From: an uncultured Pseudomonadales bacterium | GTDB lineage: Bacteria; Pseudomonadota; Gammaproteobacteria; Pseudomonadales; Azotimanducaceae | Reading direction: 5' to 3' | Length of the DNA stretch: 37,501 nt | Assembly: GCA_905182155.1 (NCBI GenBank) | Contig: CAJJAX010000014.1 | Coordinates: 1 to 37,501 of the forward strand | Shown: positions 16,443-20,452 of the stretch, in pieces | Layout of the letters: every line of letters begins with the position of its first letter | Position numbering within the stretch: the stretch's first letter is position 1 | Notes under the pieces: generated by a model | Told to the model about the DNA's origin: nothing | What the model saw: only the letters and a program-made list of their open reading frames with translations | Database searches by the model: none | Translations under genes and position numbers: made by a program

Positions 16443-17039
16443 ATGCAGCAGTTCAATTATCAATCCGCTCAATTTATAACCAGTGCCGCACAAATGAGCC
16501 AGTGCCCGGTCGATGAGGGCGCAGAAGTTGCGTTCTGTGGTCGTTCAAATGCCGGTAAATCGAGCGCCATCAACACCCTAACCCGGCAAAAAAAACTAGC
16601 TCGAACCAGTAAAACACCCGGCAGGACCCAGTTGATCAACTTCTTTGGGATCACCGAGACGACCAGACTGGTGGACCTGCCAGGATACGGCTACGCAAAG
16701 GTCCCCTTAACACTCAAACAATATTGGCAAACCCATCTGGACACCTATTTTCGATCAAGACAGAGTCTAAAAGGCGTCATTTTGCTCACCGATATCCGGC
16801 ACGCGCTCAAACCTTTTGATGAAATGATGTTGCAATGGTCGGAATCTGCTGGGCTACCCATTCATGTCTTGCTCACCAAAGCGGATAAGCTCGCCCGAGG
16901 CGCGCAACAAAATGCACTACTCAAGGTGAATCGAAGTTTGCCAGAACACGCCCAAGCACAAACCTTTTCTGCACCCAATGGCCAAGGCCTAGAGATCCTG
17001 AAGGATGTTTTAGACGGTTGGTTATCGGTTGAGGCATAA
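16443..17039 (+). CDS. engB: Ribosome biogenesis GTPase EngB/YihA (YsxC)
   Basis: 198-residue TRAFAC-class GTPase needed for assembly of the large ribosomal subunit. G1 is [10 protein letters not shown]2 lies in [13 protein letters not shown]3 is DLPGYG, G4 is LLTKADK, and G5 is near FSAPNGQG. Divergent from cytochrome c4/dsbA and convergent with polA, the usual neighbourhood. The sequence coding its last 10 or so residues (from about 17008) appears again, decayed, 441 bases further on as part of a tandem duplication that also covers the following small-RNA locus. Confidence 0.95.
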
Positions 17040-17043
17040 AAAC

Positions 17044-17168
17044 CACTACCACCGCCACCTGATCCAGGTGGGGCTCGAGACTTCGGTAAAATGGGGAAAA
17101 CCGAAGTTTCTGCCAAAATGTTGAAACACAAATAATCAGACCGAGCAAAGTGGAAATAGTTCCGCAAA
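17044..17168 (-). ncRNA. Candidate small RNA, copy 1 (Spot 42/ErsA position)
   Basis: On the minus strand a TAAAAT box (17180-17175) is followed by about 27 diverged bases and then the 71-base block 17141-17071. That block folds into ACTTCGG/CCGAAGT (17080-17107) with a 14-base loop containing UUUUCCCC. Downstream is a CCACCTG/CAGGTGG hairpin, but the T-run (five T) comes 12 bases later, so the terminator is weaker than in copy 2. It sits between polA and engB on the polA strand, as Spot 42 does in Escherichia coli. The ends are estimates. No sequence identity to Spot 42 or ErsA is claimed. Confidence 0.55.
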
Positions 17169-17336
17169 CCTGAAATTTTAGGAAAATACTTTAGCCGAAG
17201 ACTATCCGCGCCGGACCTCATCGAGACAGCGGACTCAACCCTTGCGGGACCCGCGCTGAACCCAATCGCGGGATTACGCGGCGGATCGGGAATCCTCATC
17301 AGTGCCAAAAAAAGACGGCCGAGGCCCTAAAACGCC

Positions 17337-17430
17337 TTAATGCGCGCCCGTCCAAGCTTTTAAAAACCCCAACTTCAACCTGATGCGGCAGGCTTACGCG
17401 CCGTTGCGCTGCGGATTAAACGGATAAAAA
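17337..17430 (-). pseudogene. Fossil copy of the polA 3' end
   Basis: Read on the minus strand, ATCCGTTTAAT, AGGTTGA.GTTGGGGTTT and GGCGCGCA-like pieces line up in order and spacing with the last 90 or so bases of polA. The copy has an internal TAA and no start. It is the left-unit polA tail left by the tandem duplication. Confidence 0.75.
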
Positions 17431-17448
17431 GGGGGCGCCAGTTTGGAC

Positions 17449-17480
17449 CCTTAGACGGTTTGTGATCGGTCTAGACAAAA
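17449..17480 (+). pseudogene. Fossil copy of the engB 3' end
   Basis: TTAGACGGTT..T.ATCGGT..AG matches the last codons of engB (LDGWLSVEA) 441 bases upstream, now with stop codons. It directly follows the polA fossil, marking the junction between the two duplicated units. Confidence 0.65.
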
Positions 17481-17599
17481 AAAACCCCACTCGTAATGGG
17501 GATTACGAGCGGGGCTCGAGACTTCGGTAAAATGGGGAAAACCGAAGTTTCTGCCGAAACGTTGAAACACAAATAATCAGACTGATCACGATATCCATA
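17473..17599 (-). ncRNA. Candidate small RNA, copy 2 (Spot 42/ErsA position)
   Basis: Same architecture as copy 1: a TAAAAT box on the minus strand (17611-17606), a diverged 5' part, the 71-base block 17582-17512 (69 of 71 bases identical to copy 1), and the hairpin with arms 17521-17527 and 17542-17548. A strong intrinsic terminator with eight T follows immediately, so the predicted RNA is about 125 bases with a defined 3' end. The single-stranded U- and C-rich loop could pair with G-rich ribosome sites. The 5' end is inferred; no good -35 box is visible. Confidence 0.65.
17477..17514 (-). terminator. Intrinsic terminator of sRNA copy 2 / polA
   Basis: On the minus strand CCCC-G-CTCGTAAT, a CCCC loop, ATTACGAG-T-GGGG and then eight T. 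The stem has 8 perfect pairs, one mismatch and 4 more G-C pairs. It lies 255 bases past the polA stop, right after the conserved sRNA block. Confidence 0.85.
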
Positions 17600-17767
17600 T
17601 TTTCAATTTTAGAAAAATACTTGATCGAAAGCCCGTCGTGCGCTGGGATCAACGCCACCGTGGCCTAAAATACGACCGGATCCCTGCAGCGTGCAACCGC
17701 ATTTTTTCGGCCGGAGCCTGCAAGTCCTGCCCTTGACCCACAACGATGGACCCAGTCTCAAAACGCC

Positions 17768-20452
17768 CTAGTGCGCGCCTTCCCAGTCTTTCGAAACCCC
17801 AACCTCAACCTCAAGCGGTATGCTCAGTTCTGCTGCACCGCACATTAAACGGATAACGGCCGCTTCGGTCTCATCCACCGCCGCTTCTGCGACTTCTAAA
17901 ACCAACTCATCGTGAACCTGCATAATTATCAGGGCCGACGAACCCGAGGTATTCAACCAGGCCTGCACCGCAATCATGGCGCGTTTAATGATATCCGCCG
18001 CCGTCCCCTGCATTGGGGCATTGATCGCGGTGCGCTCAGCGGCTTGACGCATTTGAAAATTAGACGACTTAATTTCAGGTAAGTACAAGCGTCGGCCAAA
18101 CCACGTTTCGACATAGCCTTGGTCTGCAGCTTGTGCGCGAATTGCTTGCATATAACGTTGAACGCCCGGATAACGCTGGAAATACAAATCCATGTACGTC
18201 TGAGCGTCAACCCGAGGAATGCCTAACTGCTTCGATAAGCCAAAAGCCGACATGCCATAAATCAGTCCGAAGTTAATGGCTTTAGCACTGCGCCGTTGAT
18301 CTTGGGTGACCGCATCAAGCCCAACACCGAACACTTCGGCGGCCGTCGCGCGATGAATGTCCAAACCTTGCTGAAAGGCCGCCGTCAGGCCCTCATCGCC
18401 AGACAAGTGGGCCATGATTCTGAGCTCAATCTGGGAATAGTCCGCCGCCAACAAACACCGTCCGGGCGGCGCAATAAACGCCTTTCTAACCCGCCTGCCC
18501 GCCGCAGTACGAATCGGAATATTTTGTAAGTTCGGGTCGGTACTGGACAGTCTGCCCGTTGCTGCAACCGCCTGCTGGTAGGACGTGTGCAACCGGCCAC
18601 TCTGGGGCCTGACAAGCTTCGGCAACTGATCCGTGTAGGTGGACTTTAACTTGCTCAACCCTCGGTGGGTAATGACCACTTTTGGCAAGGGATAATCCAG
18701 GGCTAATTCCTGCAAGACGCTCTCGTTGGTCGAGGGTTGACCCTTTGGCGTTTTCTTGAGTACCGGCAACTGCAACTTTTCAAACAAAATGGCTTGTAGT
18801 TGCTTGGGTGAACTCAAGTTAAATTCCTCACCCGCAAGATCGAAGGCGGTAACCGTTAAATCAGCCAGCTCGCGCGTAATTTCTTCAGACTGCTGGTCTA
18901 ACATCGTGCAATCAATCAAGACCCCATTGCGTTCAATTTGCGACAGCACGCGGATCAAGGGCACTTCAAGATTTTGGTATACCGGTAACAATCGGTTGTC
19001 CCCTGAAATTTTCGGCCAGAGGGCCTCGTGCAACTGGTAGGTAATGTCCGCATCTTCAGCGGCGTAATGTCCCGCCGCTTCAAGCTCGATCTGATTAAAG
19101 GTGCGCTGTTTGACCCCCTTGCCAGCAACCTCTTCAAACTTGACCGTCTTGCGGTTTAAATACTTCTGAGCCAAATCATCCATATTGTGACGGGTGGCCA
19201 CGCTGTTATACACATAAGACTCCAGCATGGTATCTGCGATCGGAGCGTTGATCGTTAAGCCATACCGAGCCAGGATACTCATATCAAATTTCAAGTTTTG
19301 ACCAATGACCAATTTCTTTGGATCGTTGAGAAACACCGATAGCTGGTCTAACACATTGGGTCGTTCTAACTGTTGTGGCGCGTCAGGATAGTCGTGCCCG
19401 AAAGGGATGTAGGCTGCGCGCCCCGGGCTCGTGCAAATTGACACGCCGACGATTTCAGCGTCCATGTAATTTAGCCCGGTGGTTTCGGTATCGAAGGCAA
19501 ATTGTTCAACCGCTGCAATGCGATCCAACCAAACATTGAGATGGTCCTGGGTTAACACCAGATCGTAATCTGCTGGGACCGCTTCCGGCACCGCTTCGGG
19601 CGGCGCGCCCAACGCCTCTCCCCAGCTGCGCAGCTCATAGGCTTCATAGGACGCACGCAGCGCCTCTAGATCGGGCGAACTCGGCAGAAGATCTCCGACG
19701 TCTGGCAGTTCTAGCGCCGTTCGGATCGTTGCAAGATCATAAGACAGCGGCAGATGGGTCAGTGCCTCGCGCAAATAGTCGCCCACCTTGCCGGTAATTT
19801 GGTCTGCATTGGCCATAACGCCGTCGAGACTGGTATAGGCTGCGAGCCATTTAACCGCGGTCTTCGGCCCGCATTTAGGCACACCTGGAATGTTATCAAC
19901 GGTATCCCCAACGAGGGCGAGGTAATCAATGATTTGATCTGGACGGACCCCAAATTTGGTCATGACCCCGGCCTCGTCCAGATACTGATCAGTCATCGTA
20001 TTCATCAAGGTCACGTTCGGGTTGACGAGCTGGGCCATATCCTTATCGCCCGTTGAGATCAGCACCTGCTGACCTTCGGCTGCCGCTCGCCAGGCGAGGG
20101 TACCAATCACGTCGTCGGCCTCAACGCCCGGCTCAACAACCAGTGGCAGCCCCATCTGCTCGATGATGCGGTGGATCGGCTCAATCTGAGACCGAAGCTC
20201 ATCCGGCATCGGCGGTCTATTGGCTTTATATTCAGGGTAAAGGTCGTTGCGAAAGGTTTTCCCTTTCGCATCAAAGACCACCACGATATTCGACTCTTGA
20301 AAATCCGATTGCAGCCGCCGAATCATGCTCAGCACGCCTTTGATTGCCCCGGTTGGCTGTCCCGATGACGTCATCAATGGCGGGAGCGCGTGAAAGGCCC
20401 GAAATAGATAAGATGAACCGTCTACTAGGATTACGTTAAACTTATTCGACAT
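17768..20452 (-). CDS. polA: DNA polymerase I
   Basis: 894-residue repair and Okazaki-fragment polymerase with all three domains. The 5'-3' exonuclease is at about 1-290 (VDGSSYLFRAFHA, GVEADDVIGTLA, STGDKDMAQLV); the 3'-5' proofreading domain follows with its DxE intact in AFDTETTGLN near 320; the polymerase domain has motif A DYSQIELRIMAH near 670, the O-helix RRSAKAINFGLIYGMS and motif C MQVHDELV near 845. AAGGGG precedes the ATG. It is divergent from the DUF2782 gene with a 36-base gap and convergent with engB. Its last 90 or so bases are duplicated in the downstream region. Confidence 0.97.
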   Translation of the reverse strand: MSNKFNVILVDGSSYLFRAFHALPPLMTSSGQPTGAIKGVLSMIRRLQSDFQESNIVVVFDAKGKTFRNDLYPEYKANRPPMPDELRSQIEPIHRIIEQMGLPLVVEPGVEADDVIGTLAWRAAAEGQQVLISTGDKDMAQLVNPNVTLMNTMTDQYLDEAGVMTKFGVRPDQIIDYLALVGDTVDNIPGVPKCGPKTAVKWLAAYTSLDGVMANADQITGKVGDYLREALTHLPLSYDLATIRTALELPDVGDLLPSSPDLEALRASYEAYELRSWGEALGAPPEAVPEAVPADYDLVLTQDHLNVWLDRIAAVEQFAFDTETTGLNYMDAEIVGVSICTSPGRAAYIPFGHDYPDAPQQLERPNVLDQLSVFLNDPKKLVIGQNLKFDMSILARYGLTINAPIADTMLESYVYNSVATRHNMDDLAQKYLNRKTVKFEEVAGKGVKQRTFNQIELEAAGHYAAEDADITYQLHEALWPKISGDNRLLPVYQNLEVPLIRVLSQIERNGVLIDCTMLDQQSEEITRELADLTVTAFDLAGEEFNLSSPKQLQAILFEKLQLPVLKKTPKGQPSTNESVLQELALDYPLPKVVITHRGLSKLKSTYTDQLPKLVRPQSGRLHTSYQQAVAATGRLSSTDPNLQNIPIRTAAGRRVRKAFIAPPGRCLLAADYSQIELRIMAHLSGDEGLTAAFQQGLDIHRATAAEVFGVGLDAVTQDQRRSAKAINFGLIYGMSAFGLSKQLGIPRVDAQTYMDLYFQRYPGVQRYMQAIRAQAADQGYVETWFGRRLYLPEIKSSNFQMRQAAERTAINAPMQGTAADIIKRAMIAVQAWLNTSGSSALIIMQVHDELVLEVAEAAVDETEAAVIRLMCGAAELSIPLEVEVGVSKDWEGAH

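Follow-up and report, generated by a model that had tools for sequence, protein, structure and literature searches.

The locus between engB and polA in a 37,501-nucleotide stretch of an uncultured Pseudomonadales bacterium (contig CAJJAX010000014.1; here called the window) is a tandem duplication, in which a unit composed of an engB end, a small RNA (sRNA) block, and a polA end is present twice in the gap between the two genes. Judged by its sequence, the block resembles an sRNA gene of the ErsA type, encoded on the polA strand, and not Spot 42. We consider it probable that a tandem ErsA-like sRNA gene was multiplied in place in the family of the window and that the two window copies (copy 1 on the engB side, copy 2 on the polA side) decayed in complementary ways. 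The features of the locus, in window coordinates, are as follows.

17040..17071, minus strand: degenerate 3' end of copy 1, which matches the terminator of copy 2 at 14/28 positions; canonical CCCC-loop terminator lost
17070..17142, minus strand: conserved core of copy 1
17080..17107, minus strand: predicted hairpin 1 of copy 1, 8 pairs, CCCC in the loop
17136..17163, minus strand: putative sigma-E/AlgU-type promoter of copy 1, GGAACT-N16-GTCTGA, by pattern match
17338..17427, minus strand: fossil polA 3' end, located between the sRNA copies, 67/90 identical to the polA end
17451..17477, plus strand: fossil of the engB 3' end, 22/27 identical
17469..17580, minus strand: predicted sRNA copy 2, ErsA-like
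17482..17517, minus strand: predicted intrinsic terminator of copy 2, 16 pairs, CCCC loop, T run
17521..17548, minus strand: predicted hairpin 1 of copy 2, by sequence and fold
17577..17604, minus strand: promoter remnant of copy 2, -10 GTCTGA kept, GAAAAT in the -35 place, no strict or loose pattern match
16443..17039, plus strand: engB, a YihA/YsxC GTPase gene in convergent orientation to the sRNA genes; NCBIfam TIGR03598, 234.4 bits, cut-off 124.45
17768..20452, minus strand: polA (DNA polymerase I), on the sRNA-gene strand and upstream of the sRNA genes; NCBIfam NF004397, 1163.6 bits, cut-off 720

A repeat search recovered the copies at 17070-17147 and 17511-17588 (78 nucleotides, 95% identity, spacing 441), along with an engB-side piece at 17010-17049/17451-17490 (spacing 441) and polA-side pieces at 17348-17394/17778-17824 (spacing 430) and 17405-17427/17834-17856 (spacing 429). 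With the core left out, the copies aligned with a local score of 60, compared with at most 17 in 1000 shuffles; the gene fossils between the copies scored 17 (engB) and 40 (polA), compared with at most 13 in 300 shuffles each. The initial annotation had claimed a unit of roughly 435 bases present twice with fossil pieces of engB and polA, and repeats at spacings of 429 to 441 and fossils that beat their shuffles bear this out. Aligned segment by segment, the copies were identical at 70/73 positions in the core, 26/32 in the engB 3' end, 14/28 in the terminator, 11/21 in the promoter/spacer, 23/29 in the AT block, 78/130 in the spacer to polA, and 72/100 in the polA 3' end, or 50-81% by segment outside the core. 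The near-identical block with diverged flanks described earlier was therefore recovered. Its supposedly different 5' parts were not: the conserved block takes in the -10 box as well as the predicted RNA's 5' part, which is common to both copies, and the differences lie in the -35 region and in the terminator at the 3' end.

Next, we compared the block with known RNA families. An Rfam scan of the window at gathering scores returned no match. In an E-value search of positions 16900-18000, RF01719 (Pseudomon-1/ErsA) matched copy 2 over its full length (46.0 bits, E value = 1.6 × 10−7) and copy 1 with 19.8 bits (E value = 0.37); Spot 42 was absent from the matches up to an E value of 10, and the other weak matches (sX13, PyrR, anti-hemB, snoZ5, and RybB) were set aside as chance. 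Spot 42 of Escherichia coli lies next to polA, a position that the window copies share without matching its model. Having named both Spot 42 and ErsA for this position and proposed the Rfam comparison as a check, the initial annotation is upheld for ErsA and not for Spot 42.

We also built a model, R1, from the engB-polA gaps of genus and family genomes by iterated nhmmer. The 58 hits were reduced to 54 by leaving out L023 (cut), L032 and L035 (equal to L045 and L046), and L031 (no four-T run), and to 50 aligned units by leaving out L028 (cut short), L040 (near L039), and both L172 units (with N). Loci L032, L035, and L042 share nearly all 31-mers with the 'Pseudomonadales bacterium' contigs L045, L046, and L051. 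No row of R1 was titled Pseudomonas. When 41 of the 42 loci titled Pseudomonas were given to R1 (L112 was not), 38 matched at an E value of ≤1 × 10−3, within about 350 bases after engB and on the polA strand; L047, L053, and L110 failed at this threshold. No match was obtained in the 7 given loci titled Halomonas, Modicisalibacter, or Onishia. On the window, R1 scored 80.3 bits for copy 2 (17477-17561) and 47.6 bits for copy 1 (17036-17120). The homology between the block and ErsA thus holds in both directions, with RF01719 finding copy 2 and R1, free of Pseudomonas rows, finding the Pseudomonas loci. Like ErsA, the block lies between engB and polA, beside engB and on the strand opposite to it.

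The same resemblance extends to the predicted fold, a hairpin followed by a terminator with C-rich loops. Hairpin 1 folds with 8 pairs, one more than the 7-bp hairpin first reported, and CCCC stands in its loop in 50/50 units and in the terminator loop in 43/50. Across an alignment of 91 matches, changes occurred on both sides in 18/18 pairs and 96.5% of cells were paired, values that 0/500 shuffles reached; this alignment was fitted to the model, and in a free alignment 11/18 pairs covaried, all within the terminator. Covariation of both hairpins was hence seen on the model-fitted alignment, and copy 1 of the window has itself lost the terminator hairpin. The 3' end of copy 1 folds at -15.0 kcal/mol (RNAfold), and its hairpin (17055-17071) has no U tract next to it; the 16-pair hairpin of copy 2, the strong terminator on the polA strand noted from the start, folds at -24.7 kcal/mol.

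We then searched up to 110 bases before each unit for the strict pattern [GT]GAA[CT][TA]-N15-18-GTCNNA, which we take to be the sigma-E/AlgU consensus, with expectations computed from shuffled letters. Of the 91 match rows, the count took in 72 (all except 17 Pseudomonas-type rows, L039, and the partial L164 match), to which 8 units of other loci were added. The strict pattern preceded 63/80 units (0.26 expected) and a loose version preceded 76/80 (5.86 expected). The units without even the loose pattern were copy 2 of the window, L038, L129 (where the box sits inside the model match), and L031 (where the box contains an N). In the other multi-unit genomes (G012 left out), the strict pattern was found before 20 and the loose pattern before all 21 units tested. 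Taken together, similarity to RF01719, R1, covariation, promoter motifs, and the relatives support the earlier claim of two paralogous sRNA genes, as predicted genes; with a core identity of 70/73 between two genes of one genome, they qualify as siblings at the gene level.

Several results weigh against this reading. Copy 2 falls below the RF01719 gathering cut-off (46.0 versus 50 bits) and copy 1 far below it (19.8), for which reason we call the copies ErsA-like and do not file them as ErsA members. A simple terminator scan found 2 sites, both in copy 2, versus 2.0 expected from shuffles, and a scan for sigma-70-like promoters found 0 versus 1.1 expected. The window's own genome (72.69% complete) has no RpoE above the curated cut-off and only a sigma factor at 60.3 versus 236.15 bits; RpoE above cut-off was present in 10 of the 15 genus genomes, the window's own not among them, and Hfq in 14 of the 15, the window's own among them.

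The comparison of the engB-polA gap across relatives, proposed with the original claim, revealed one to four units per gap. Matches at an E value of ≤0.001, some of them weak, occurred in 58/206 family genomes, and 11 of these 58 carried two to four tandem units. Within the genus, 8/15 genomes had two units (G000, G001, G003, G005, G009, with its units split over two contigs, G011, G012, and G013), the window's own included; G004, G007, G008, and G014 had one unit with both flanks seen; G002 and G010, cut by contig ends, and G006, with no match, gave no count. In the rest of the family, four units at intervals of about 236 bases were counted in G107, three in G072, and two in G084. Copy number needs at least 4 changes on a 33-tip tree in which 4 tips were scored unknown. 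The series suggests that the gene was copied in place again and again. We rejected G125 as a tandem case (two contigs, variants of one locus, 566/595 identical), the unit tree as a guide to copy orthology (most supports below 80), and a DNA tree of engB and polA for placing the window (support, 28-55); the deep nodes of a protein tree were also weak (36-59). Gene fossils were likewise rejected as proof of one shared duplication: at the 9 multi-unit loci tested, only the window's beat the highest shuffle, and the engB fossil of L168 scored the same as its 95% shuffle value.

In an order-wide sample, 64/390 genomes had a match. Unlike the tandem arrays, the 19 matching genomes of family f21, which is the family of G056 (121.3 bits), had one match each. 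G308, from another family, had two units beside engB, both with a promoter, and no polA match in the fetched stretch. At its cut-off, RF01719 found none of the 37 searched genomes of the window's family, while R1, partly built from them, found 19/37.

Of the two window copies, copy 1 retains the promoter motif and has no canonical terminator, and copy 2 retains the terminator and has no -35 box, so that each copy has lost the part kept by the other. With its -35 box gone, copy 2 probably yields little RNA, arises as the 3' end of the polA messenger RNA (mRNA), or is on its way out. It is a real possibility that copy 2 is a dying relic and that only copy 1 works, the core identity going back to conversion before the -35 box was lost. 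Of the 23 units tested at multi-copy loci, all but copy 2 match at least the loose promoter pattern, and upstream of the -10 box the two window copies are only 11/29 identical; on the other hand, the terminator and hairpin 1 of copy 2 are intact, and it is copy 2, not copy 1, that fits R1 better (80.3 versus 47.6 bits).

The core also calls for an explanation. Fourfold sites were 51-55% identical between the window and three relatives and 63-66% among those relatives, which places the window outside the three; together with the spacer identity of 78/130, this indicates that the window duplication is old and falls near the split from these relatives. On small numbers, such a fresh core between old flanks is suggestive of either conversion or strong constraint. 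Purifying selection alone, without conversion, is a possible but rather unlikely cause of the core identity: hairpin 1 identities of 81-100% among the compared orthologue pairs and 76-100% among other paralogues speak for it, but the 5' linker of the window copies (32/34) exceeds that of five other paralogue pairs (15/41 to 29/34) and of pairs from different genomes (18/41 to 31/34), a modest difference in a short stretch. An A in hairpin 1 is kept in both window copies and absent from seven units that belong to four near relatives; L210, the second unit of G009 and outside that alignment, is one T shorter and keeps an A, so that the A is not a clean mark of the window pair. Concerted evolution as a general rule was rejected for G107 and G072: mean identity was 84% within versus 77% between genomes, and the copies in G072 resemble one another (71-79%) no more than they resemble those of G107.

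Copy 2 could instead be the processed 3' end of the polA mRNA and copy 1 the stress-induced form, a division of labor brought about by promoter loss. On the polA strand, about 190 bases separate the polA stop from copy 2 downstream of it, and the only strong terminator in the gap on this strand belongs to copy 2. This argument follows from location alone, and we hold the idea to be unlikely. A merely duplicated polA terminator or repeat element with no sRNA gene, which the location downstream of polA and the terminator of copy 2 might recall, is very improbable given the sigma-E-type pattern before 63/80 units, the covarying hairpin 1, and the model similarity to ErsA. An assembly artefact, conceivable for a draft genome of 49 contigs and 72.69% completeness and exemplified by the two apparent copies of G125, is scarcely credible for units that differ by 19-50% outside the core on one contig, with arrays on single contigs in other genomes.

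For the probable tandem ErsA-like gene, the most likely mode of action, drawn by analogy with ErsA and the NmsR siblings, runs from stress through sigma-E and the RNA to Hfq and pairing through C-rich loops. The ancestral unit would have been self-contained: its sigma-E/AlgU-type promoter would be followed by a short 5' linker, by hairpin 1 with CCCC in the loop, and by a terminator hairpin whose loop is usually C-rich as well. Envelope stress would free RpoE/AlgU, the ErsA-like RNA would be made and bound by Hfq, and its C-rich loops would pair with mRNAs near their ribosome-binding sites. In the window's family, the gene would have been multiplied in place more than once, to two to four units, and in the window, copy 1 would retain its promoter and a weak terminator. 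We give only a small chance to the bolder proposal that the gene, under a sigma-E promoter, has its dosage tuned as units are repeatedly multiplied in place and lost, with the core homogenized by short-tract gene conversion and promoters and terminators drifting, and with the window holding a stress-induced copy and a polA-mRNA-3'-end copy acting on the same targets.

Passages of published reports describe ErsA of Pseudomonas aeruginosa as a 132-nucleotide RNA driven by sigma-22 that acts with Hfq on algC, amrZ, oprD, and anr (PMC5819304, PMC8575079, PMC7264166). They also describe tandem sibling sRNAs as adjacent, closely similar genes, namely PrrF1/PrrF2, OmrA/OmrB, and NmsRA/NmsRB, with OmrA and OmrB differing in their promoters (PMC4211561, PMC5362039) and the NmsR siblings of Neisseria using UC-rich anti-Shine-Dalgarno stretches (PMC5362039). 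As predicted genes, the window copies resemble such siblings in being adjacent and closely similar, and differ in their locus and in units that vary from one to four within one family. The siblings' sequences are presumably unrelated to the window genes. Among the literature matches listed, titles, abstract beginnings, and passages contained no report of a duplicated ErsA. ErsA and tandem sibling sRNAs are therefore known, and what is new is the copy number, that is, the apparent repeated in-place multiplication of an ErsA-type RNA. The results extend ErsA and its sigma-E-type promoter motif beyond Pseudomonas to another family of the order. Moreover, they offer a natural series in which one putative stress RNA occurs in one, two, three, or four copies at one address, which makes dosage, conversion, and division of labor among sibling sRNAs testable.

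Further observations concern the gap and its units in relatives. In 11 family loci (L131, L133, L143, L145, L148, L153, L154, L155, L158, L161, and L162), the computed engB-polA gap measured -7 to 12 bases, too little to accommodate the RNA at that place. Dispersed second copies, ErsA-like and with a loose promoter match, were seen in G110 (L203:2008-2101) and G091 (L205:1948-2044), with no engB or polA in the fetched stretch. Between units of near relatives (L167:939-1250 and L169:953-1164), there is an array of about 9-14 copies of a 22-25-base repeat (AACGCTAAGGGCTTTT...), which was not noticed in the window's stretch as displayed. In L039 and L040, short repeats (GTAGTAAAGCTTTTGGTA) lie upstream of the unit and extend into hairpin 1, a pattern that resembles slippage and multiplication of the 5' part.

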